Positions 7,153 through 30,600 of a stretch of 39,017 nucleotides of DNA are shown in pieces. The notes beneath the pieces were generated by a model that worked only from the letters and a program-made list of their open reading frames with translations, was not told where the DNA came from and ran no database searches. The translations under genes and the position numbers were made by a program. The stretch is from positions 1 to 39,017 of the forward strand of contig JAJDEG010000359.1 of NCBI GenBank assembly GCA_029259895.1, read 5' to 3'. Every line of letters starts with the position of its first letter. Positions within the stretch are counted from its first letter, which is position 1. This DNA comes from Planctomycetota bacterium. GTDB taxonomy: Bacteria; Planctomycetota; Planctomycetia; Pirellulales; PLA5.

Positions 7153-8478
7153 TCACGCGAGGATTCCTTCGACGACTTTGCCTGGCGAAAGCCGCACGGG
7201 CCGACTTTGCCGATCCATTAGCTCGTGCGCCGGATCGACGCCCATCATGTGCCACAGCGTCGCGAGAAAATCGGCCGGGCTGACGGGATTATCTTTTACG
7301 CTGCCGCCCTTGCTGTCGGAGCTACCGTAGACCGTTCCGCCGCGCGTTCCGCCGCCGGCCATGACGGTCGTGTAGACTTCCGGCCAATGATCGCGGCCGC
7401 GGCCCTGGTTGATCGTTGGCGTGCGGCCGAACTCGCCGGTGTTCACAACCAGCGTCGAATCGAGCAAGTCCCGCTCGCGCAAGTCCTCGACCAGCGCGGC
7501 GAACGCCTGCTCCATCGGCGGCGCGCGGTGCTTGAGCGTGTTCGTGATGTCGCCGTGGTGATCCCACGATTGATTGAACTCGTTGTAGCCGACGAACCGC
7601 ACGCCGATCTCGACCAGCCGCCGCGCAAGCAACAGCGACTGCCCCATCTTCGTGCGGCCGTAGCGATCGCGGACCTTGTCCGATTCGCGGGTGAGGTCGA
7701 GCGCCTCGCGCACTCGCGGATCGGTGAGCAGTTCGTAAGCCGTATGGCTGAACAGTCCGCGGCTGCGGACTTGGGCCGTATCCATGTCCTTGCGCAGAGC
7801 GTCCAGGTTCTTGAGCAGTGCGTAGCGCGAACCGACGCGCTCCGGCGACATCGACTCCGGCAGCGACATCGCCGGCGGGCGGAAGTCGGCCTTTTGCGGC
7901 TCGCCGGAGATGAGCAGCGGATCGAACAACGAACCGAGAAACCCGCCGTACTGCCCCGGCATACGGTTCGATGGCCCCGGTATGCTCAGCCACGTAGGCA
8001 GCGAAATGCTCGTCGGCAGCCCGGCCTGCGGCGGCTCGAGGTAGTTCAGCACGGCGCCGGGGCCAGGAAAATCTTTTGCGTGCGCCTCGCGGTCCTGATT
8101 CGGCTGGTCGACGGATCCGGTCAGGGTGATGTACGTGCCGGCGATGTGATTGTTGAAGCCATGCGTCATCGAGCGGACGAGCACCAGGTCGCCGGCCACT
8201 TTCGCACACTCGGCCATCGTTTCGCCCAGGCGAATCCCGGCGACGGCCGTGTCGATTGGCTTGAACTCGCCGCGAACTTCGGCGGGGGCATCGGGCTTCG
8301 GATCCCACAGATCGATGTGGCTCGGCCCGCCTTGCAACAGCATGAAGATGCAACTCTTGGCCGAACCGCTGCGTCGCGCTGCGCTGTCGTCGCCGGCCGC
8401 CAACGCCGAAGGAACTGCACCAACGCCGCCGAGAACGCTCAAAGCACCTACGCGCAAAACGTCTCGGCGGTTAAGCAT
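7153..8478 (-). CDS. DUF1501 domain-containing (sulfatase-like) protein
   Basis: Tat-like N-terminus MLNRRDVLRVGALS; KSCIFMLLQGGPSHIDLWDPKPDAPAEVRGEF; TGEFGRTPTINQGRGRDHWPEVYTTVMAGGG. Confidence 0.93.
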   Translation of the reverse strand: MLNRRDVLRVGALSVLGGVGAVPSALAAGDDSAARRSGSAKSCIFMLLQGGPSHIDLWDPKPDAPAEVRGEFKPIDTAVAGIRLGETMAECAKVAGDLVLVRSMTHGFNNHIAGTYITLTGSVDQPNQDREAHAKDFPGPGAVLNYLEPPQAGLPTSISLPTWLSIPGPSNRMPGQYGGFLGSLFDPLLISGEPQKADFRPPAMSLPESMSPERVGSRYALLKNLDALRKDMDTAQVRSRGLFSHTAYELLTDPRVREALDLTRESDKVRDRYGRTKMGQSLLLARRLVEIGVRFVGYNEFNQSWDHHGDITNTLKHRAPPMEQAFAALVEDLRERDLLDSTLVVNTGEFGRTPTINQGRGRDHWPEVYTTVMAGGGTRGGTVYGSSDSKGGSVKDNPVSPADFLATLWHMMGVDPAHELMDRQSRPVRLSPGKVVEGILA

Positions 8479-13911: not shown

Positions 13912-15108
13912 TTAACGCCGCCGGCGACGGCAAAAACACGCTGCGGCGAACCCACATGCCGCCAGCGCCCAAGTCGATGGCTCCGGCACCGGAGTGAAGG
14001 CGAACGTCCCCGCGGCATACCGGTTGGCTGGCCCCGCGTCGGCGGTCAACGGATACGACGTGCAATCACCGCCGTCGAAGCAAAACCGCGAACGGCCGAC
14101 GAACGACAGTGCGCCGCCACCGTCGTTTATGCGTTTTGCAATCGCATCGGCCGCATTGGCGAATAACTCTCCCTCGCCGTAACCGTGGGCGTTGATCGTG
14201 TAGGCCCCGGGTTCGAGCCGGACGTTTCCGATCGATGCGAAGCGGCTACCACCCACGAGCGCATCGGCGCTGCCCGACAACACGTGGCTGGCCAGGATTG
14301 CACCGCCGGTATCGTCGGCAAAATCTTCCGGCGTTCCGTTATCGTTGCGGGCGTAGATTTCGACGGTGATCGGTCTGTTGAGACCATCTTGGCCCGTGTC
14401 AAAAGCGCCAAGCGCCGAAACGAAAATCGGTTCGTTGACGACGAAGTCCATTCCAGCGGAACCGTTGAAATTTTGAGTCCCCGATCCCGGCGCGCCGGAT
14501 TCGTAGGCGATCACATCGCCATTGAAAGTGGCTGGCGGCAACGGATTTGAAATGAACTCGAATGTGCCGCCGCCGTAGAATCCCCCCGCATCGTCACCGT
14601 TCGGGAAGTCTCCCGGCGTGGCATTGAACGCGCGTCCGCCCGTGAAAGAGATCGAACCGGCACCGTCGTCCGTCGTCGTGTTTGTCGCAGGATTGTAGAG
14701 CAGGTCAATCGCCGAGTGCCCGGACGAAGCGATCCTATAAGAGCCGGGGGAAAGCGTAATCGTCGGTATTGTCTTCAGCCGAGCCGAGCCGATGAGCGTT
14801 CCAGGGTCGGCGTTAGTAAACGTTGCTTCGGCCAGGGACGTGCCAGTACCGACATCCCAAACCTTCGACGTCAGCGTGCCGCTGATGCCGTCGCCCAAAT
14901 GGTCGAATACGCCGAGCGACGTAACTTGGATCGGTTGATTGACCACGAACGTCATGCCGACCGATCCGGCAAAGTTTTGGTTTCCGGCCTGGCCTGCGGG
15001 CCAAATATAGGCGATCTCAGCGCGTGCGGCTGGGCACATGAGCGAGAGCAACCCGAATGTTGCCAACCCAACGTACACAGCACACTTCTTCAAATGTCGC
15101 ATTAGCAT
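13912..15108 (-). CDS. PEP-CTERM sorting domain protein with two tandem copies of a ~160-aa beta-rich domain
   Basis: C-terminus VPEPSTWALAACGFAAACFCRRRRR. Repeats: NQNFAGSVGMTFVVNQPIQVTSLGVFD... and TQNFNGSAGMDFVVNEPIFVSALGAFD.... Confidence 0.85.
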   Translation of the reverse strand: MLMRHLKKCAVYVGLATFGLLSLMCPAARAEIAYIWPAGQAGNQNFAGSVGMTFVVNQPIQVTSLGVFDHLGDGISGTLTSKVWDVGTGTSLAEATFTNADPGTLIGSARLKTIPTITLSPGSYRIASSGHSAIDLLYNPATNTTTDDGAGSISFTGGRAFNATPGDFPNGDDAGGFYGGGTFEFISNPLPPATFNGDVIAYESGAPGSGTQNFNGSAGMDFVVNEPIFVSALGAFDTGQDGLNRPITVEIYARNDNGTPEDFADDTGGAILASHVLSGSADALVGGSRFASIGNVRLEPGAYTINAHGYGEGELFANAADAIAKRINDGGGALSFVGRSRFCFDGGDCTSYPLTADAGPANRYAAGTFAFTPVPEPSTWALAACGFAAACFCRRRRR

Positions 15109-15321
15109 GCCCTCCGGTTCCAGCGTGAAACGGCTTTCCATACCGAAAGGTCTGGAAAGAACAACGCCGCTAGAATAACTTCACGCTTTGGCATTTGCAA
15201 CCGTTTTTGCCGTACAAAATACGGAGTCGTCGCGTCGCGCGGCTCCCGTGGCAAATCGCTTGACGTACCGCACAGTTCGATTAGGATGGCGCTGCCGTGC
15301 GGCAAGTAAATTCTTTCCAGT

Positions 15322-18300
15322 ATGAACTTTTATCTAGCGGGGCGATGCATGCCTCCGCCGAGGCCTCTCAAAATGGTGTGCCGAGCAAGATCGCGTCGTC
15401 CCCGCCTCGTTTTTGAACGGCTCGAAGCTCGGCAGGTTCTAGCGGCGAGCCTCGTAATCAGCGAATTCTTGGCCGCTAACGACAACGGCATCGTCGATGA
15501 AGACGGCGACAGTTCGGACTGGATTGAGCTCTACAACGGCGGGGCCGATGCCGTCGATTTGGCCGGCTACCACCTGACCGATGACGCCACGCTGCTCAAT
15601 AAGTGGGCATTCCCGAGCGTTAATCTAGAAAGCGGCGGCTACCTCGTCGTCTTCGCCTCGGACAAGGATCGGGCCGTTGCCGGCAGCCAATTGCATACGA
15701 ACTTCAAGCTGAACGATAACGGTGAGTACCTGGGCCTGATCGCGCCCGACCTCGCCGTCGTCGACGACTACGACCCGACGTTTCCAAATCAACGCAGCGA
15801 TGTTTCCTACGGTCAACTTATTTCGGAAACCGTGCTCGTCGGGGCCGGAACCGCGGCGCGAACGCTGATTCCCAGCGGGCCGGTCGCCGGCGATTGGACC
15901 GGCGGAGCCGAACCGTTCGACGACTCGACGTGGACCGCCGGCGATCTCGGCGTTGGATATCCCGTGACCACGCCGATTTCTCTGCCCGTCTCGGGATCGG
16001 GGACGGCCTATACGGTTTCGCCGGGCGCGATTGGAAACCAGACGTTCGGCGGATCCTTGGGAATGGACTTCGAGGTGGCGGCACCGATCACGGTGACGCA
16101 ACTTGGCGTGTTCGATAGCGGCGCGGACGGACTCGCGCGGACAATTACTGGCGAGTTGTGGTCGCGCGTGGGCAACACCGGAACGCGGCTGGCGCAGCTC
16201 TCATTCACGAACGCCGACCCTGGTACGCTTGCCAATGGAAGTCGATTCAAGCCGCTGGCGACGCCGCTGGTAATTCAGCCCGGCTCGTACACGATCGTCG
16301 CACACGGTTATGGCGCCGGCGAACCGAACGGCAATTCAAGCGGCGCGGCGGGTGGCTTCGGCTCGACCGACGCGGGCGGTGGAGTGATCTCGTTCGTCGG
16401 TGCGGGGCGATTCGGGACGGCTGGGCAGTTCCCCGCGACGCCCGACGGCGGGCCCTCGAATCGATACGGCGCTGGGACGTTTCAATACTCGTTTTCGTTC
16501 ACGCCGACGGCCGGTTTAGTGAATCCTTCGTTTGAAGCCATCGCGCTGGGCGACGACGGTTTCGTCGACGGATCCGTGCCAGGTTGGTCGCAGTCGGGCG
16601 GCGTGGCCGGCACTTGGAACCCGAACGAGCCGCGTTACGCCGGTGCGAATGACCAAACACCCGACCTCGACACAACGATTCCGGACGGCCGCAACGTCGC
16701 ATACATCAACGGTGCGGGCATCCTCTCGCAAACGCTGGCCGACCTGCTGCAGACGAATGCCACGTACACCCTGTCGGCTTTGGCGGGGCAACGCAGCGAC
16801 ACGCTCGTCAACCTGAGCTACACGTTGCGATTGTCGGCCGGCGGCGTCGAGTTGGGTTCGGTGTCGGGTATTACGCCCGGGCCGAATTCATGGACGCCGG
16901 CTGAGCTGACCGTTTCGACCGGAAGTAGCCATCCGCAGTCAGGTCAGCCAATCGTGGTCGAACTGATCAATACGAGCGGCGCGCAGGTGAGCTTCGACAA
17001 CGTGCAATTCACGACACTGCCGGCGATTCGCACGAATGTCGAAGCGACGATGAAGGACGTGAACGCGACGGCGCTGGTGCGTTCGACGTTCGACGTTGCC
17101 GATCTCGCGGCGATCGATTCGCTTGCGCTGCGGATGCGATACGACGACGGCTTCGTGGCGTCTCTCAACGGCGTCGAAGTCGCCCACCGCAACGCTCCGG
17201 GCACACTGTCGCACGACGCAGCGGCCGCGACGGCCCGGCCAGATGGCGCGAGCGACGTCGCCGAAGTGATTCCACTGACCGCTTTCCTGGGCACGCTGCA
17301 AGCCGGCTCAAACGTACTGGCGATTCACGGCTTGAATGCATCGGCCGGCGACGACGACTTCTTGATCTTCAGTGAGTTGATCGCCACGACCATCGGCGAA
17401 AACGAACTGCGGTACTTTACGACGCCGACGCCCGGCTTCGGCAACGTGGGCGGATTCTTAGGCTTCGTCGCGGATACGCAGTTTTCCGGCGATCCGGGTG
17501 TGTTTCACGGTCGCGGCTATTACGACGCGGCGTTCGACGTGACGATCTCGACGGCCACGGCGGATGCGACGATTCGCTATACGACCGACGGCACGCCGCC
17601 GACGGCGGCCAACGGTCTCGACTACACCGCGCCAATTCATATCGACGGCACGACGACGCTGCGGACGGCGGCATTCAAGGACGGCTTTGAACCGACGAAC
17701 GTCGACACGCAGACGTATCTGTTCATCGCCGACGTTCTTTCGCAAACGGGCGCGGGGCAGCCGGCAAGCTGGGGCGGATTCCCCGGCGACTATGCAATGG
17801 ACCCCAACGTCGTCAACGTGCCGGCCTATATGGCGGAGTTGCCCGACGATCTCAAGTCGCTGCCGGTCGTGTCGTTGGTGATGCCGACAGACGATATGTT
17901 CGGCCCCGGCAGTTTGCACGCCAATCCGTTCGCCGATGGGCTTGGCTCCGAGAAACCGGTTTCGGTCGAGTTCTTCGATCCGCTGGGTCGCGAACCGGGT
18001 TTTCACGTCAACGCCGGCTTGCGAATTCAAGGCGACGCCAGCCGTTCGCACACGGAATCGCCGAAGAAGGGTTTTCGTATCGCGTTTCGCGACGTCTACG
18101 GCCCCGGCAAGCTGCGTTACAACCTGTTCGAGAATTCGCCCGTCGAGGAATTCGACACGCTGCGGCTGAAGATGGGCTTTGGCGATAGCTGGACCGTGCC
18201 GCGCGAGCATCCGAAGGATTCTTCGTTTGTGCGCGACGCTTGGACGCACCAGACGTTTCGCGACATGGGCAATACGTCGCCGTACGGCCGCAAAGTCCAC

Positions 18301-20889
18301 GTCTACATCAACGGCCTGTACTGGGGTATGTACGACTTGATGGAGCGGCCCGACGCCGATTGGGCGTCGTCGCACTTTGGCGGCGCGGAAGAAGATTGGG
18401 ACGTGATCCACGACGGGGCGGCGATCGACGGCGATGCGACGGCGTGGAACGCGATGTTCGCGCTGGCCAATGCCGGGCTTTCGTCGCCCGCCGCGTATGC
18501 ACAGATGGAGCAATTGCTCGATGTCGACGAGTTCATCGACTACATGATCGTGAACCTCGTGGCGTACAACCAGGACTGGTTCGGCGGATCGAAGAATTAC
18601 TACGCGGTTCGACAACGCGATCCGGCGGGTAAGTTTCAGTTCATCCCGTGGGATAATGAACACGTGCTGTCGATTATCGGCATCAACCGGCCGGTGGACA
18701 CCGACATGGTGAACGATTTCAACCAGGATCGCACCGCGTCGCGACTGTTCCAACAACTGCGGGCGAATCCCGAATTTCGTCAGCGTTTTGCCGACCGCGC
18801 CCAGCAGCACCTGCTGGGCGATGGAGCGTTGACCGGCGAGGCGATGCGCGAGCGTTGGGAGCCGCTGGCCGCTGAGATCCTCGGGGCCGTGGTGGCGGAG
18901 TCGGCTCGCTGGGGCGACGCCTTCACACCCTACAACAGTCCAATTCTGCCGACGCCGCCCTGGCCGCGGCCGTTGTGGGCGTCGCCGCTGGGCCGGGCGG
19001 ACGTGCTCACGGAACAAGCCCGGCTATTCGATACCGTGTTTCCATTTCGCGCGGAAACGGCCTTACAGCAGTTCCGCACGAACAGCCTTTATCCGTCGCT
19101 CGATGCGCCGACATTCACCGTCAATGGCACGCCGAGCACGGGTGGCGTCGTTGCCGCTGGATCGCAACTGGCGATGCTCTCCGGCGGCACAATTACCACG
19201 ACGACGACGCTCGTCGCCACGAACGCGACGATTTCCGCGTTCGTGCCGGCCAACGACGACTTGGACGACGATTGGCTGTCGCCGACGTACGTGCAGGGCA
19301 CACATAGCGAAATCTGGCTCATTGGGCCGAGCGGCGTCGGCTACGACACGGGTGCGGGCGGCGACTACCTTCCGGCCGTCGGCATCAACGTGGAATCGCA
19401 GATGTTTGGGGCCAGCGGTAATTCGTCGGTCTACGTCCGCGCTACGTTCGAGATCGCGGATCAAGCCGCTCTCGACGCGCTGCTGGCCGCCGATACATCG
19501 CTCGTGATGCGGATGCTCGCGGACGATGGGTTTGTTGGCTACCTAAACGGCGTCGAAGTCGCTAGCGCCAACGCGCCTGGCCGCGACGGTCAGCCCGGCG
19601 TACTCGATTGGAATTCCGATGCGCCGACGTTTGTCGAGGTCGCCATCGGTTCGCCGCAGGAGATCGATCTTTCGCCGTTCCGCTCCTCGTTGCAAGTCGG
19701 CACGAACGTGTTGGCGATTCACGGTCTCAACGACGCCAACACGTCGAGCGATCTATTGATTCGTCCGGAGCTGGTCGCGATCACCACGTCGCCGCCGCCC
19801 GTGCCGCCGACGATCTTCTACACGACCGACGGGACCGATCCGCGCGGGCCCGGCGCGATTACCTACGCGGGACCAATCCCGCTCAACGCGACGCTGCACG
19901 TCACGGCCCGTTCGTTCCAAGGAGGCACGTGGAGCGCCGAGGCTGATTCGCTATTCGCCGTGCCGCCGCGGCTGCGCGTTTCGGAGCTTTACTACAACCC
20001 GCCGGGATCGCGAGACGACGAAGAGTTCGTGGAACTGTTGAATATCGGCTCGACGACGATCGACTTGACGGGCGTGCGGCTCAAACTGAGTCCGGTCGAC
20101 GGCGAATATAACTACGAGTTTCTCGCCGGCGAAGCGAATCTGCTGCTGCCGGCCGGTGGGCGGATTGTCGTCGCCGGCAATCGCGGCGGTTTCTTATTTG
20201 CGTACCCAAATTTGCCAGCCGCGGCATTGGCCGATCGCGAGTTCACGGGAAATCTCGACAACGGCGGCGAGCCGATCGGTGTAATCGATGCCGATGGTGG
20301 CGTCATCCAGTCGTTCACTTACGACGATGTATGGCATCCGACGACCGACGGCGATGGCTATTCCCTCGTGATCGCCGACGCGACCGCGCCACTCGCGGCG
20401 TGGAATCAGGCGTCCGGTTGGCGCGCGAGCTTTCAGACCGGAGGGTCGCCAGGTGAGGAAGATCGATTAAGCGGCGACGTCAACGGCGACCTGCGCGTCG
20501 ATCTCGTCGACCTTGCGATTTTGCAATCCAACTATGGAGTCGTTTCGGGTGCGTTGCGGTCGCAAGGCGACCTCGACGGGGACGGCACGGTCGGCAGATC
20601 GGATGTCGCCCAACTGGCGCGGAATTTCGGCCGACACGTCGCTGCGCCCCCTTCCGCCGCTGCCTCCGTAATCGCCAAGCGAAGCGACGCTGGCGTATCG
20701 CGTACGAACGCCGCCGTCGACCCGCGTGCGAGCGCTCGCCGCGGCTCGACGCGGCGATTGGCTCGCAACGATCGCGCGGTCGACCGCTTCTACGCGGATG
20801 GCGCGAGCATCAAGCCATTGACCGCCCGCCGATCGTCCGCCAATTCACGGACATCGCCAGCGGTCCTCGAATCAAGCCAAGCCGAATGA
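15322..20889 (+). CDS. Large secreted protein: lamin-tail domains, CotH kinase-like domain, chitobiase C-terminal-like domains, dockerin
   Basis: LVFERLEARQVLAAS (LEPR-like); LVISEFLAANDN...DWIELYN and LRVSELYYNP...EEFVELLN (LTD); GDASRSHTESPKKGFRIAFR, YGMYDLMERPDADW, FQFIPWDNEHVL (CotH); IRYTTDGTPPT and IFYTTDGTDPR (CHB_HEX_C); GDVNGDLRVDLVDLAILQSNYG...GDLDGDGTVGRSDVAQLARNFG (dockerin). Confidence 0.88.
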   Translation: MNFYLAGRCMPPPRPLKMVCRARSRRPRLVFERLEARQVLAASLVISEFLAANDNGIVDEDGDSSDWIELYNGGADAVDLAGYHLTDDATLLNKWAFPSVNLESGGYLVVFASDKDRAVAGSQLHTNFKLNDNGEYLGLIAPDLAVVDDYDPTFPNQRSDVSYGQLISETVLVGAGTAARTLIPSGPVAGDWTGGAEPFDDSTWTAGDLGVGYPVTTPISLPVSGSGTAYTVSPGAIGNQTFGGSLGMDFEVAAPITVTQLGVFDSGADGLARTITGELWSRVGNTGTRLAQLSFTNADPGTLANGSRFKPLATPLVIQPGSYTIVAHGYGAGEPNGNSSGAAGGFGSTDAGGGVISFVGAGRFGTAGQFPATPDGGPSNRYGAGTFQYSFSFTPTAGLVNPSFEAIALGDDGFVDGSVPGWSQSGGVAGTWNPNEPRYAGANDQTPDLDTTIPDGRNVAYINGAGILSQTLADLLQTNATYTLSALAGQRSDTLVNLSYTLRLSAGGVELGSVSGITPGPNSWTPAELTVSTGSSHPQSGQPIVVELINTSGAQVSFDNVQFTTLPAIRTNVEATMKDVNATALVRSTFDVADLAAIDSLALRMRYDDGFVASLNGVEVAHRNAPGTLSHDAAAATARPDGASDVAEVIPLTAFLGTLQAGSNVLAIHGLNASAGDDDFLIFSELIATTIGENELRYFTTPTPGFGNVGGFLGFVADTQFSGDPGVFHGRGYYDAAFDVTISTATADATIRYTTDGTPPTAANGLDYTAPIHIDGTTTLRTAAFKDGFEPTNVDTQTYLFIADVLSQTGAGQPASWGGFPGDYAMDPNVVNVPAYMAELPDDLKSLPVVSLVMPTDDMFGPGSLHANPFADGLGSEKPVSVEFFDPLGREPGFHVNAGLRIQGDASRSHTESPKKGFRIAFRDVYGPGKLRYNLFENSPVEEFDTLRLKMGFGDSWTVPREHPKDSSFVRDAWTHQTFRDMGNTSPYGRKVHVYINGLYWGMYDLMERPDADWASSHFGGAEEDWDVIHDGAAIDGDATAWNAMFALANAGLSSPAAYAQMEQLLDVDEFIDYMIVNLVAYNQDWFGGSKNYYAVRQRDPAGKFQFIPWDNEHVLSIIGINRPVDTDMVNDFNQDRTASRLFQQLRANPEFRQRFADRAQQHLLGDGALTGEAMRERWEPLAAEILGAVVAESARWGDAFTPYNSPILPTPPWPRPLWASPLGRADVLTEQARLFDTVFPFRAETALQQFRTNSLYPSLDAPTFTVNGTPSTGGVVAAGSQLAMLSGGTITTTTTLVATNATISAFVPANDDLDDDWLSPTYVQGTHSEIWLIGPSGVGYDTGAGGDYLPAVGINVESQMFGASGNSSVYVRATFEIADQAALDALLAADTSLVMRMLADDGFVGYLNGVEVASANAPGRDGQPGVLDWNSDAPTFVEVAIGSPQEIDLSPFRSSLQVGTNVLAIHGLNDANTSSDLLIRPELVAITTSPPPVPPTIFYTTDGTDPRGPGAITYAGPIPLNATLHVTARSFQGGTWSAEADSLFAVPPRLRVSELYYNPPGSRDDEEFVELLNIGSTTIDLTGVRLKLSPVDGEYNYEFLAGEANLLLPAGGRIVVAGNRGGFLFAYPNLPAAALADREFTGNLDNGGEPIGVIDADGGVIQSFTYDDVWHPTTDGDGYSLVIADATAPLAAWNQASGWRASFQTGGSPGEEDRLSGDVNGDLRVDLVDLAILQSNYGVVSGALRSQGDLDGDGTVGRSDVAQLARNFGRHVAAPPSAAASVIAKRSDAGVSRTNAAVDPRASARRGSTRRLARNDRAVDRFYADGASIKPLTARRSSANSRTSPAVLESSQAE

Positions 20890-21643: not shown

Positions 21644-24600
21644 TCACTTTATCGCGACGCGCTGTTCGGCCTCGCGGCGCAGAATGCGAAACGTGAGCGG
21701 ATCCCACCAACCATCGCTCAAGTCGTTGGGATGTCTCTGGCTCGCCCACTCGGTCTCGGTGGCATCGGCCTCGGCCAGAAGTTGCCTTACTTCTTCGGTT
21801 CGTCCTTGGCGTTGGCGCACCATCGCCAAGACGACCTGACACGTCGACTTGCAGACTCTCGTTGCGGCTGTATCGTCCAGTGCCGCTTGCAACGCCGCCG
21901 CGGCTCGATCGTCGTCGCCGGCGCGGTACTCGGCTAATCCGTGGCACAGGTAAAACCACGGCATCAGATGGTTGGGCCTATCGTTGCGCGCCGACTCGGC
22001 AAGCGCGATGTCCACGGATTTCTTCGCCAGAACGCGGACCGCTTCGGCATCGTCGACGGCATCGCCGATCAACAAACACGACTTGGCGACGGCGTCGGCG
22101 ATCATCGGATCCTCTGAGGCGGCGAATCGCGTCAACATTTCCTGACACAAGCGGCGATACGCGTCCTTGTCGTCGACCTGCGCCAAGGCGGCAGCGAGCA
22201 CTTGATGGGCGCGATGATCGGTCGCATCCAGTCTGATCGTGTGTCGAATCGCGGTCACGGCCTCTGGCCAGCGCCCCCACCGACCCAAATACCGCCCCCG
22301 CGCCATCCACAACGTTCGGTCGTCCGGCCGCAGCTTTGAAACCGCGCTGAATAGCCTGCCGCTGCCAGCCACTTCTTCGACGAGATCCCCGGACTTGTTG
22401 TGCCAATTGGCATCGACCTGTTCCTCGTCCGCCGCCAAGGCAGCCGCGATGTCGGGCGCCGCTTCGGCGAACCGTCCGAGACGGTGCAGCAATTGCGCAC
22501 GCTTTCGCCGCGTTGTCGTCAGGCTCGGGTTCGCGTCGACCAGAGAATTCAATTCATCGAGAACTTGCCCGGCTTGCGACGACGTATAGAGTCCGACATC
22601 GCAGAAAGCAGCGCTGAAGTTGTTCTTGCCATGCACCGCAATCACATTTTTGCCCGGCTTGAGCGTGGCGGCGGCGGCCGTGTTACACCCGACAATACCG
22701 TATTCCGCTGTACCCTTCAGATCCGCCGCTAGGTCACCGTTCAAATAGACGCGCGCTTCGTCGTCGCAGCGAAAGCGAAACAACAGTACGTCCGTTGGAG
22801 CCGCATCGAGATTGAATTCCCGCCGCAGCCATACCTCCGGCTCCGACCATTGCGTCCGACCCGTCTCGTCGCCAGTTTCGCCCGACAGTCGATCGGCAAA
22901 CGGAGCATTGCCCGTCAGCCATTCCGCGTCGTCAAACGTTGGGCTGGCCCAATCGTTGGCCGGCTTGTCGGTCGTGTAGCGCCATTCGACCCCAGCGGCT
23001 TGCGCGTCGCCAGCCAGCGGCGTCAATCCCGCTTCGCCGGCCAAACGGTCGAGACGGTCGAGTACACGAGAATCGTCCGGCTTATGCCGAGCCGCGGCCA
23101 GAAAATCTGCGGCGGCGCGATCCCAGTCGCCTTGCGTGGCCCACAAATCACCGCGGCGGGCGAGAATCGCCGCGTCGTTCGGGTCCACGGCAAGCATGCG
23201 ATTCCAATCCTCGAGCGCCTCGGCGAGCTTGCCCGTGTGAGCGAAAATTTCGGCCCGCTCCGCAAGAAGCTTCACGTTCTCCGGATCGGCTTGAAGCGCC
23301 AGCGTCACGTCGGCCAGCGGCCGCTCGACGATGATGTCATTCGCTTCCCGCTGCCAGACGAAAACTCGCGCCCAGTCGTAATAGAGACCATTGCTCGGCC
23401 TCCAATCTCCGCCCGATTTGGCAAGTTGTTCGCGCAAGCGGTCGTTCGCTCTGACCAATGCCGCGCGGGCCTCGGAAACATCGCCTAACCGATATAGTGC
23501 AAGAGCGCGCACGAAACGGTATTCCTCATAGTTAAAGGTTGTGTCGTCGATGGCATCGAGGGCTTCCTGGAAACGTCCGAGACGGTAGAGCGCGCCAGCC
23601 CGTACGCCTTGGCCTTCGATTTGCGGATAAGTGAGGTACTCCTCGACCGCGGCCGCTTCGTTTGCGGCCAAGGGCATGAGAATGATTTTTCGCAGGTTGG
23701 GATAACCTTGTCTTCCGGCGTCAACAACCTTGAGAAGCAACCGGCGGGCTCGAAGGTACTCTTGTGGTTGCCCGGCGGCAGCGAAAACCACCGCGGCAGT
23801 ACGCAGATACCAGGCATCCGAAGAATCGGGCACTTCATCGAGCCCGGCGGCGCAATCTTCCGCGGCTTTCTCGAATTCACCTTGCTCGGCCCAGCATCGG
23901 CCGCGATTAATAAGAGTATTGGCGCGTTGGACTCCCGGTGTGGCGACGGCCAAGCCTTCCGTCAATGCCGCACGGGCTTCGGGCCAGCGCTGAAGATTGG
24001 CGAGGCACGAGTAACGTCGCCAGTAATGACTGTGCCGCCGCGGCTCAAAGCGTTTGCTCAATCGCTCGTAGTCCGCGAGCGCCTCGGCCCAACGATCGTT
24101 GTCGTAAAGCATCTGCGCGCGATCCATTAGCGGCTGAGCCTCGTCGGGAGCGCGCTCGACCAGCGTCGTGTAATCCGCCAGCGCCCTGTCGATTTGTCCG
24201 AGTTGCACGAACTGCTCCGCGCGGGCCGCGAGCGCCTCGGGATCGTCGAGCGACGTTTCCTCAGACTCCGTCCGCGAACCGAGCAGCGTGACGCCGGCCA
24301 GCACCAGGTCGCTGCTGTCCGTGCCGACATTGTGCAGCGAAATCGCCAACACGTGCTCGCCCGGCTGCAGCGACATGGGTAGCGCGACCGCCAGCGGCCG
24401 CGGTCCCGATCTCGTCGAGCTCGCCATCAGGCGATACGCATCTTCGCCTGCTCGCACATTCTCGCGCACCACTTCCTCGCCGTCCAAATAGATGATCACG
24501 CCGTCGTCGTAAAACAAGTTGAGCTGAAGGGCATCGTACGCGGCATCCGTGGAGAACTTGTGCCGGAAGTAGGCTGTGCGGCGATTGCCCACGGGAGGCT

Positions 24601-27600
24601 CGCCGATGTCGACGGCGTTTGGCTTGCCATAGCCGAAGCCACCGCCGATGCCCGGCTGACTCCTGCCAACCGTCCATGTCGAGTCATCAAAGTCGGCATG
24701 TGCGAACGATGTATGAAAATCGGGCACCGAATCCGCCGGATCGACGCCGTCGATCGGGTGTAACCACTTCCAGCTTGCCGCAGGCGAAACGATGACATTG
24801 CTGTCGAGCAATGCGTATAGCTGGCCCTGCTGCCGGCGAAACTGCGCGTCGTCGGGTCGCAGCCGCGTGGCCGCGGTCAGATCGGCCAACGCCGCCGCGC
24901 GGGCGCCGAGCCGGCCGTGAATCAACGCCCGCTCGACCAACAATGCGGCGTCCTCCGGCCGTTCGCGCGCGGCAACGTCGAAATCGGCGATCGCCTCGCG
25001 CCAACGGCTTTGTGATACCCACAACCGAGCGCGGCGCAACGCCACCTCGGCGGTATCTGGCTGCGCGGCGAGCGCCGCGGTGTAGTCGGCCTCGGCGTTT
25101 CGCAGATCGCCCTGCTGTTGATAATAAAGCCCGCGATCGGCGAGTTGTCCGGGATCAACGACGTCGTACGTTTTTGCCGCCCCGCGCCGCGCTCGCAGCT
25201 CGATGTGCTCGATTCGCAAGTCGCCGCTTCCTGGCGCGCGGTTGTGAAGCGATATTGCCAGCACGTGCGTTCCCGACGAAAGCGAATCCACGAGCGACAC
25301 GTTCACCGTTCGCCGCTCGACTTCGCCGGTCGTGATATTTTCGTCGGCCAACAGATCGTACGCTTCGGGCCCAGGCCGCATGTTATCGCGGGCCACTTCG
25401 ACACCGTCGAGGTACACAATGATGCCGTCATCGCGCTGCAACGAAAGCACGAGATCCTTAAGCGGCTGTTCGGTAACGAATCGATGACGAAAATAGGCCG
25501 TCCAGCGCTGGCCGACAGGCGGCGCGCCGATATTAACGGCGACACGGTCCCCATATCCCATTCCGCCTGCGCCATCGCGGCTCATTCGCCATTCGGAGTC
25601 GTCGTAGTCGGCCGTGAAGAATGATCGCTGGAAGGCGGGTTCGCGCGCGGCGGGATCGACGCCGTCGGTGGGGTGCAGCCATTTCCACATCGAACCGGCG
25701 GGCACGACGACCGACATGTCGCCTTCCGCGAGCATTTTCCCCCGCTCGATGCGCAGCGCGTCGTCGTCCGGTGTGAGCCGGATGGCGGCGGCGTAACTGG
25801 CGTCGGCTTCGGCGATTTCTCCTTGCCTGGCCAGTAGCTTGGCGCGGGCGATCGAGAGCTCGGGTCGATCCGGCAAGCGTTCGATCGCACGGCTCAGTTC
25901 GGCCAATGCATCGTCGCCGCGAAGGAATTGTTGGAGCAATTCGGCCCGCTTGAGAGAAGGCAGCGGACTCGACGGATCGAGCGTCTCGGTCTGTTGCACC
26001 GGCCAAAAGCCGTCGCTCTTCACCTCGAGTAACCGCGAATGGATTTCGGTGACCGGCTTGGCTAGCGAAACCTTCCAGTCGACGGTTCGCCCGTCGTCAA
26101 CGAAGATAGCCGCATAGCGACGCTGTCCGTCGGCGACGTAGGCTTCGATCCAGGCGGGATGCACGTTTTCAGAGAGCGCGTCCAATTTCGCCCGCAGGGT
26201 ATCGACGTCGAGTCGCAGGTGCGTCTGGCTCGTGCCGCCATCCTGGACCCATACGGCGAGAAATCGCAAGCGATCGTCCAGGTCGTGATAGGTGTTGATG
26301 AGCGTCGGTCGAAACTGCTCGCCGGCCAATTCGGCGATCTTTTGTTCGAGCGCGGCGAGGTCCATGTCGATATGCACTTGCCACGGCGTGGCAACTTCCT
26401 CGCGCGTCCACACGGCCGACCAGCGAAGTTCGTTTCCACGGCGAAAGGCGTCCACGGATGTGGGGCGAAAGCCTTCCGGCAACTCGCGGCGACGTTTCTC
26501 GATCGTCGCCCAATCTACGTCCCAGTCGAGGCGAAACGGCTTGCCATCATTGACGGCCGCCATGGAATACCGCCGGTCGCTGCCTCGTTGATCGATCGTG
26601 AGGAACCGCGGCCGGACCGATGCAAGTCTCTCGTCCCCAGCAAAATCGCGCAACGTCTGCATCGACTGATCGGCCGCCCAATAGGCGTTGCTGCCGGGAA
26701 GGTCGCCGAACCGGTAATAAATTGCGTCCGAAATGTTGCCCACGTCGACGATTTCAAGGACAAGCTCCTGGAATTCACGGCGGTCGTGGAGAAGTTGCAA
26801 GCGCGCCTCGGCGAAAATCGAGTCAGCGGTAAATGCGCGGTGTATTCCCGCGTCAACGGCCTGACGCAGCGTATCGAGGGCCTGGTCTTCAAGTTCCTTT
26901 CGTCGCCGATCCGTATCGGCCTCTTTCGGATCGCTTCTCTCGAGCGCACGCGACTGCTCACTGAACGTGCAGGCCAATTCAAATCGACTCGTCGGATCGT
27001 AAGGCCGCAGCGCCGCCGCTTTCTCGAAGTCTGCCGCCGCGTCCGCGAATCGTTCAAGCCGCAAGGCGACGCGGCCGCGGGCCATTAGCGGTGCGTAGTC
27101 GTCCTCCGTAACTTCGATCGCCTTGGTCCATTCGGCGTAGGCCTCCTCGTCCCGTTTGTGCGTCTCGTACAGCGACGCCAGGGCCGACGAATCGGATTGC
27201 CATCGGGCGACGAGGTTGTGCTGTCGGGGTACGACAAGCCGCGCCACGAGGACATTCCACCCCGTTCGCAGCGTCACGCGAACGAGCGGTGCCAGGCCGG
27301 GCACTTGCTTCGTGCCTTCGCGGATCAATTCGCCGTTGAGGTACATCCGCAATGCCGGATCGCGGGCCGTTTGCAACACGGCGTCGTGTTCGTGAGCCGC
27401 ATAGATGTGCTGCCGCGCGAAGTACACGCCAGGTGCTCCGGAAAACCGCAGGTCGAGGTTAACGTTTTCGCTGGCAACGGGACTGAGTCGCCGCCAGACC
27501 TCCGGCTCCGGCGCACGGATGGTGGACGCCACGTTCGTCTCATCGTCGGCCGACGTGTCGCGCCAGTACGACTCATCCGTGCCGGGCGGCCACGGCCCTT

Positions 27601-30600
27601 CGGCTTCGTGCGCGTACGGACCGGCAATCCACCAACCGAAGACGATTGCGGCATCGCCGAGCCGGCCATCGACGTCGTCGTCGGCAAGTTCGTCGGTGCT
27701 CGTCGGCTGATCGACGCCGGGCCCGGCCGTTTCCTCCGCCCCACGCTTCGGACGTCGCAGAAACGACTCCGAAAGTATGCCGGCGGCGGCGTTCCATTTA
27801 CCGAGCATGATGTAAGCATCGGCCAGATCGCGTGCGGTGCGTTGCTCGTTGGGAGACTGCTGAAACGCTAGTGACAGCGCTTCGCTGGCTCGTCGCCAAT
27901 CACCGACGCGGGCCAATTCGCGCCCCCGCTCGGCCGCTTGCGCGATCGCCGACGGTCTTTCGGCCATCGGCGGGGCATCTAGGAAACTGGCCTGCAACAG
28001 AAGCCGGTCGTGCGAAGCTCGATCGAAGTGAATCTGTCTGGCCCACGCCGGAACGTCGATATCGAGTCGCCAGCGCGTAATCGACGAGTCTTCAACAAAA
28101 ACGGCGTTGAAGTATCGACGCCCGTCTTCGCGGTAGGCGGCGATCCAGTCGGGCCGCCAGTTTTCGGCGAGGCCGGCGATTCGCGCGCGCAACTGCGCTT
28201 CGTCCAAGTGAACGACCGCCTCGTGTTGACTGTCGTCCTCGATCCACGTCGCCGCATATCGCGCCTTACCTTCGAGCGAGGCACATCCGCAGATGGCCGT
28301 AGGTCGCAGACCAACGGCGCGGTATTCGCTCATGCGGTCGGCGAGCGTCGCCAAGTCAAGCTCTTCCTCCTGCCGCCAAGCACGGTTATCTGCGTCCTTC
28401 GTCCAAATGGCGGACCATCGCTGTCGATCACCGACACCGGCAACGTGCGTCCACGCCGGACGATAATCGGCCGGCAAAGTCTCGACGAAAGAGCGCATGT
28501 CGTCGTAGTCCACACCCACCCGATAAGAGGTCGGCTTGTTGTCGCCGACCAGGCCGTATGAATAATCGGCGTCCGAGGCCGCTAGATAAAGCGGCCGAAA
28601 GCCAGCCGGGAAACTCGTTGCGACGCGCGGCCCAGAACGATTCTGCCAACCCATGTTGCCGGCTACGACCGGCGCGTTGACGTTGGCCACGATCGCGCCC
28701 CTGCGGACGCGCACCGCAACTGTTTGTCCCGGTTCCTTCCGTTGCAGAACGGCTGTCAATTGGCCCTGGTTCGCGGTCGGCGTTCCGTCGACGTGCGTAA
28801 TCAAGTCCAAGACCTGAAGGCCTCCCTCCTGGGCGTCGCCGTCGTTCGAGAAACCGAGGACGCGGATTCCTCCGTTCTCTGCCTCGTTTCGAACGTTGAT
28901 GCCAAGCACGTTTTGACGCGATGGTTCAAGTCCGATTTTCTCCGGATGAGCCTGGACCTGATCGCGGTCGTACCATAGATAAACGTAGCGCGGCGCATCG
29001 TCCGACAGTTTGTCGAGCAGTTTTTGCGGATCATCGCCAACGGCCAAGGGTGTGCCCAACGTGCGAGCGATCGAGGACAGCAGCGGGTAGTCGTAGTCGA
29101 TGCGAGCAAGGTCGACGGCCCGCCGGTAAGCCGCAACGCATTCTTCCCACCGGCCGTCGTCCTGATGAACGACGGCCTCGGCTTTGGCGGCTTGAGCTTG
29201 TTTGCGCCGCGCCAAGCGTCGGGCATCGGACGCCATCGAATCGCGCCACGCAGCATGTTGCGCCGGACTTGCCGCGACATCGTCTCGAAACGATAGCGGT
29301 AAGCTCTGCCACGCGGATTGAAGCGACTGGACGGTGGCCGGCAGTGCGGTGCCTGCCCCCTCGACGCTCGTTCCCGACAATATCCGGCTCACCGCCCGCC
29401 AATCGGCAACGCCGCGGTCGTCTCCGCTTAGATCCCAGATTTGCACACGGCCGTCGACGGTCGCCGCGGCTAGTCGTTCGCCGCTGGGATGAAACGCGAC
29501 GCTGGTCAACAGATTCTGGTGCTCCAGCGGCGGTGCGATGGCGATTCCCGTCGCCGCGTCAAAGACCCGCGCCTTGCCGTCGTGGCTGGCCGTTGCGACG
29601 CGACGGCCGTCGGGACTCAACGCGACTGCAACGACATGATCGCCGTGAACAAGCGGCGGCGTAATCGCCACGCCGGTTTCCGCATTCCAAACGCGCGCCG
29701 TAGAGTCGTTGCTCGCCGTCGCAATAACCACGCCACGAACGGGTTGGTCGTCGCTGGCCAATACCGCGCCCGTCGAAACCGCGTCGGTCACGCCATCGGC
29801 GTGGGCCAGCGGCGGACCCAAGGGGCGTCCCGTCGCCGCATCCCACAGCCGCGCCTGCTGAGGAGTAAGCGACGTTCCAGCGCAGGACGTTACGACGCCT
29901 TTTCCATCGGAGGTAAACGCCGCCACGGTAACCGGCGCCGCGTGCCATATTTCGTCGGATCGCGGTTGGCCCGTTTCCGCGTTCCAAACGCGAGCTTTCT
30001 TATCGTTGCCGGCCGTGACGATCCACTTTCCGTCCGGGCTGAAACGTGCCTGGTGAACCGCGCTTTGATGCTTGATCGCCTGGCCGCGCGTTTCGCCGCT
30101 GCCGACGTCCCAAACGCGGGCTCGTCCGTCGTCGCAAGCCGTGACGAGCCATTTTCCATCCGGACTGAAACTGGCGAAATTGACGCCGCCTTCGTGGAGT
30201 AGTGGAGCTTCAAGGTGTGGCTGCCCGGTGGCGACGTCCCAGAGCCGAGTCGTTTTGTCGTCGCTCGACGTGGCGACGATTTGTCCGTCGGCGCTGAACG
30301 CGACGTGAACGACCGGTCCATCGTGCATTAACGGAGCGCCATGAGGATGACCCGTCCGCGCATCCCATAAGCGAGCGGTGCCGTCGGCGCTCGCGGTTGC
30401 CACGATTTGGCCGTCCGAGCTGAACACCGTGTGATAGACGTAGGCTTCGTGGCGCATCGTCGGCAACGTTGGCTCCAGTCCCGCCAAATCCCACAGTCGG
30501 ACCATGCCCTCGACGTCGTGCGTTGCCACCGTCCATCCATCGGCGGCAAACGCGGCAGACATGACGCCCGCCGAATGCCGCAGCACCGCCAATGGCCTGC

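Follow-up and report, generated by a model that had tools for sequence, protein, structure and literature searches.

A loop of the jelly-roll module in CotH surface proteins recurrently holds varied, replaceable inserted domains

CotH proteins of Planctomycetota and other phyla can carry, after a lamin tail domain (LTD), a jelly-roll module in which one loop is a slot for recurrent, varied and replaceable domain cargo. The existence of this slot is well supported by the comparisons described below. The loop probably serves as a permissive display position for domains of putatively adhesive or glycan-binding type, which have been exchanged over evolutionary time. The case analyzed here lies in a 39,017-nt stretch of contig JAJDEG010000359.1 from a Planctomycetota bacterium (assembly GCA_029259895.1), referred to as the window, in which a single gene encodes one filled and one empty copy of the module (Table 1).

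Pfam searches of the 1855-aa product of this gene detected two LTDs, DUF4082, an HpiC1-like domain, two Fn3_assoc/CHB_HEX_C_1 matches, a CotH domain that passes its gathering score (110 bits, cut-off 23.8) and a dockerin. Together with comparison of the module copies, this gives the order LTD, split module, Fn3_assoc/CHB_HEX repeats, CotH, module copy 2, second LTD and dockerin. Elsewhere in the window, the minus strand encodes a 3952-aa chain combining a protein kinase with many WD40 and many TPR repeats (21644-33502) and a DUF1501 protein (7153-8478) with more than 50 homologues within the same genome.

Table 1. Features of the CotH surface protein gene, in window coordinates.
Feature	Position	Strand	Evidence
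CotH surface protein ORF, 1855 aa	15322..20889	+	ORF list and Pfam domains
LTD, directly 5' of the split module	15445..15774	+	Pfam PF00932, best stretch 42-151
Jelly-roll module copy 1, N-terminal half, ends GVGY (residues ~162-213)	15805..15960	+	Module HMM columns up to 177; high-pLDDT strands
Inserted cargo, residues 214-565 (HMM edges 219-564 = nt 15976-17013)	15961..17016	+	Copy 2 and uninterrupted relatives as references
Cargo domain 1, DUF4082	15988..16500	+	Pfam PF13313, residues 245-372; model strands 223-393
Cargo domain 2, HpiC1-like (Stig-cyclase/CBM-like beta sandwich)	16519..17010	+	Pfam PF22825, residues 400-563; PDB 6a8x
Jelly-roll module copy 1, C-terminal half (residues ~566-699)	17017..17418	+	Module HMM columns 178 onward; pLDDT mostly >90
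CotH kinase-like domain	18019..18924	+	Pfam PF08757, E 2.2e-31
Jelly-roll module copy 2, uninterrupted	19192..19791	+	AlphaFold mean pLDDT 86.6; Foldseek matches among GH2 sugar-binding domains
Empty slot of copy 2, 13-aa loop DTGAGGDYLPAVG	19345..19383	+	Comparison of copies

The original prediction held that one copy of a duplicated module in this protein is split by an in-phase insertion, and both the reading frame and the two copies were found as it described. When the flanks of copy 1 are joined and the loops removed, they align with copy 2 over 143 columns at 45% identity (E 2e-25). This match, together with the recurrence of the break in dozens of relatives, shows that the split is not a product of chance. 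The break had been placed after position 15960, which is exact, residue 213 (nt 15960) being the last of GVGY. The module had been said to resume at 17032, about 15-18 nt too late: the HMM match resumes at residue 565, and LPAI (residues 566-569) is part of the native loop, with YLPAVG as its counterpart in copy 2. The C-terminal half of copy 1 thus restarts at about residue 565/566 (nt 17014-17017), and the foreign stretch runs from about 15961/15976 to 17013/17016, or 346-352 aa. The predicted insert of 357 aa (1071 nt) had native loop residues counted into it; the loop spans 357 residues in copy 1 versus 13 in copy 2, a net excess of 344 aa. That 1071 is divisible by three is true, but as evidence it is trivial within an open frame. 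Near the insert edges, at 15934 and 17016, lies a 12-nt repeat (11/12), but it was not accepted as a target-site duplication, as seven such short repeat families occur in 1.2 kb. GC content is the same in the insert (0.62-0.65) as in the gene, so composition gives no sign of a recent foreign origin.

AlphaFold models were made of residues 41-731, covering the split copy and the LTD, and of copy 2 separately; alignments A2, A4 and A6, in which one or the other module half is misplaced, were kept out of the structure work. In the first model the LTD and both module halves are mostly at pLDDT 90 or more and DUF4082 is modelled well, while the HpiC1-like domain is modelled poorly (pLDDT mostly 27-44). 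In the second, copy 2 has a mean pLDDT of 86.6, is uninterrupted as predicted, and has its strands and short helices ordered as in the split copy. Model confidence and strand order support the predicted packing of the two halves of copy 1 as one domain. Among solved structures, copy 2 is most similar to the sugar-binding jelly rolls found in GH2 beta-glucuronidases and in LacZ, with a Foldseek probability of 1.00, E values from about 1e-06 to 6e-05 and TM by query of 0.37-0.42. A PDB profile search with the module gave no credible sequence match, the solved GH2 members included, and we therefore describe the module as having a GH2-like fold rather than as a member of the GH2 family.

The reading of the split as a domain-into-loop insertion is supported both by these models and by relatives in which the loop is empty. 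Neither outcome named beforehand as refuting this reading occurred. Many uninterrupted forms of the module were found, two of them within the genome that carries copy 1, which is accordingly a nested-domain arrangement: a host interrupted by complete foreign domains, with uninterrupted homologues. The sister species (G001) yielded no one-to-one orthologue of the CotH gene, its best CotH identity being 44%, so the empty site is known from paralogues and more distant relatives. In a synteny comparison with this species, just one neighbour gene (DUF1501, 80% DNA identity) matched its contig, and no orthologous locus was recovered. Three CotH paralogues (L238, L239 and L241, at G000:C43, C585 and C257) have no jelly-roll module, their LTD joining the following linker, and the module itself is therefore optional.

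To place copy 1 among its relatives, modules were gathered from 98 genomes and from a second set of named genomes. Both sets show a recurring alternative between a short loop and, in the same position, an insert of about 145-510 aa; this position lies between the GVGY strand and the motif TDV...M.G.N.S.Y.R. Inserts of 50 aa or more were counted against an HMM of 352 columns built from empty modules; 78 of 83 fall at columns 165-198, three at columns 250-257 and two elsewhere. The binomial probability of such clustering under uniform sites is below 1e-60, a figure that treats related modules as independent trials, which they are not. About 60 other modules have short loops of 3-21 aa. Of the LTD-adjacent modules in the genome that the window comes from, 17 carry an insert and 2 have an empty loop; in this genome the C-terminal copies are uninterrupted, and a C-terminal-type copy in another genome (L058 in G014) is filled. 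The named set spans Planctomycetota, Verrucomicrobiota, Sumerlaeota and further groups. Among its members are the isolates Rubripirellula obstinata (L167), Haloferula (L160) and Aeoliella (L145), so mis-assembly of MAGs is not the cause of the inserts. Filled and empty modules are both present in a single-contig genome (G007).

It could be argued that a tandem module duplication left the split as a scar, the C-terminal half of a first module and the N-terminal half of a second having been deleted around DUF4082 and HpiC1. These proteins do have several module copies, which makes a deletion between copies possible in a single case, but the same break column is found in dozens of modules with unrelated cargo, and the two halves of copy 1 are complementary, nearly non-overlapping and both modelled at high confidence. 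We consider such a scar very improbable. Two further observations concern the surroundings of the slot. A second insertion loop occurs in the C-terminal half of the module, after NAP..W.S.A, and holds legume-type lectins (L051:2741-3409, L059:1917-2579) or LamG plus NPCBM (L072, G027:C158). In five modules (L117, L118, L145, L148 and L154) a second LTD lies a few residues 5' of the usual slot, sometimes followed by additional cargo, for instance F5/8C or PA14.

The insert in the window's protein had been predicted to comprise two domains, and Pfam identified both above their cut-offs. DUF4082 (PF13313) was detected with E 3.6e-07 on the whole protein and 3.4e-08 on the insert alone (30.7 bits against a gathering cut-off of 28.4), and the HpiC1-like domain (PF22825) with E 3.5e-30 (105.8 bits against 27). 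The latter also matches PDB 6a8x (E 7e-05), and together with the PF22825 match this might suggest a small-molecule cyclase like the Stig cyclases. Stig cyclases have a conserved Tyr89/Asp214 dyad, and the structures nearest to them are non-catalytic CBMs (PMC9063808). In the 6a8x alignment, the first Asp of VDFDNV aligns with the Ser of VSFDNV, assuming a 2-residue shift in numbering, which also brings the Tyr into place. With the dyad apparently missing and the closest structures non-catalytic, a cyclase is extremely improbable, and a binding role is the more likely one for the HpiC1-like cargo, as judged from sequence.

As slot cargo, the DUF4082 and HpiC1-like pair occurs only in the window's protein among the inserts examined. 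A similar arrangement is present outside the slot in G189:C158, a free-standing protein that matches PEP-CTERM weakly and has the order DUF4082-DUF4082-HpiC1-HpiC1; G084:C61 also combines the two domains, with DUF4082 first. The pair filling the slot would thus have counterparts in free-standing secreted proteins. An independent capture of the DUF4082 in the CotH insert was considered and set aside: in the DUF4082 tree, this domain is neither united with nor separated from the C6/C75 cargo (AU p 0.14). The divergent neighbour of the CotH gene (13912-15141, minus strand) also codes for DUF4082, in two copies, along with a PEP-CTERM motif; its DUF4082 domains are no closer to the window's cargo than other DUF4082s and are not its closest relative.

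Cargo was typed in 89 inserts with local profiles seeded from Pfam results. PA14-like domains account for 26, F5/8C for 19 (one to three copies), LamG for 17, an unnamed family for 8, DUF4082 for 5, a malectin-like family for 3, another unnamed family for 2 and CBM96 for 1, where "malectin-like" and the unnamed families are our own labels and not Pfam's. Eight of the 89 have no family assignment, several of these carrying a second LTD. At least nine families are represented, in one to three copies (F5/8C x1/2/3, LamG x1/2, DUF4082 x1/2), and part of the cargo is not lectin-like or is without assignment (L160 and others). One cargo family, seen in L128, L134, L146, L147, L184 and L193, has a conserved YND motif and matches every Pfam model poorly.

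Turnover of cargo was followed on an unrooted tree of 133 modules, 79 of them filled, from which the inserts had been cut out. At least 29 changes of cargo type are needed among the filled modules (30 under a mixture model), a minimum obtained on trees with many weak nodes and with gains and losses pooled, as the root is not fixed. Shuffled cargo labels need 46 changes on average and never fewer than 41, indicating that cargo is inherited yet often replaced. Individual clades illustrate this. In one (L156/L158/L172, support 100/99), PA14, an empty loop and PA14 occur within relatives carrying another cargo, and L134, L147, L158 and L172 are all modules of one MAG. A clade of ten modules (support 100/97) holds three named cargo types, one unassigned cargo and one empty loop. 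L133 carries LamG and L134 an unnamed family, with flanks 83% and 80% identical in DNA. Cargo is kept in the putative orthologue pairs C6/C75, C660/C169 and C171/C242, while paralogues differ.

These data bear on the possibility that the filled slot is ancestral, with cargo only ever lost and its diversity arising by divergence of one old insert. The unrooted tree gives no polarity, the filled or empty state alone needs just 9-10 changes, and L158 resembles a loss within a filled clade. Such a history is nevertheless quite unlikely, since the cargo comes from separate Pfam families (PA14, LamG, F5/8C, CBM96 and DUF4082) that are hard to derive from one another, and replacements are required within clades. 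Alternatively, the insertions may be neutral, in a loop that tolerates extra domains with no selected function. Many relatives have an empty loop, and one survey records inserts in 20% of the multidomain proteins it covers (PMC13114784). However, the cargo remains open and recognizable, is kept between putative orthologues and is skewed to binding-type families, and 17/19 modules are filled in one genome; we regard neutrality as unlikely.

We found no description of this slot in the literature, in a search with thin coverage of subscription journals. A close parallel is in GH3 beta-glucosidases of K. marxianus and S. venezuelae, where PA14 sits within a loop of the (alpha/beta)6 sandwich (PMC5104943). 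There too a PA14-type domain occupies one site in one host loop in part of a family, but the cargo is a single family and the host an enzyme, whereas the module described here is a jelly roll without known catalytic function that has received at least nine families with many replacements. A carbohydrate-related enzyme with a nested domain is likewise similar, but its ancillary domain is fixed, and the available part of its source reports no swapping of unrelated cargo. The GH2 jelly roll of LacZ and beta-glucuronidases shares the fold of the host module (Foldseek probability 1.00 to many GH2 enzymes); the module here differs in having no sequence match, no GH2 barrel and whole-domain cargo in its loop. 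Polymorphic toxin systems, as presented in the available part of PMC3482391, also combine a conserved scaffold with variable domains drawn from standalone cassettes, though here the variable part is internal, in a loop, and not a toxin. Lamin tail domains and CotH are combined as well in Cthe_0239 of Clostridium thermocellum, a cellulosomal secreted LTD-LTD-Fn3-CotH protein (PMC6083626).

Taken together, the data suggest a model in which the jelly-roll module after the LTD of CotH proteins acts as a host whose first slot is permissive, and whole folded domains, mostly lectin- or CBM-type beta sandwiches, have been inserted there many times. Recombination between paralogues and illegitimate insertion are candidate routes of cargo movement. 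The module may hold out its cargo as the binding head of a scaffold that is secreted or anchored at the surface, and each paralogue would then recognize a different ligand through its own cargo. A more far-reaching version, in which the slot is an evolved plug-in port through which Planctomycetota and Verrucomicrobiota surface scaffolds vary ligand recognition by swapping lectin-like domains, the second slot included, with free-standing domain genes and paralogue recombination as sources, is conceivable but somewhat doubtful. Nested-domain proteins usually hold one fixed cargo family, while this slot takes many across several phyla; it thus offers a natural experiment on loop permissiveness, and the module is a possible scaffold for displaying domains. 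The surface proteins of planctomycetes form large families that are poorly understood, and here the cargo found in a given paralogue suggests what the protein may bind, offering ligand assignments that can be tested.
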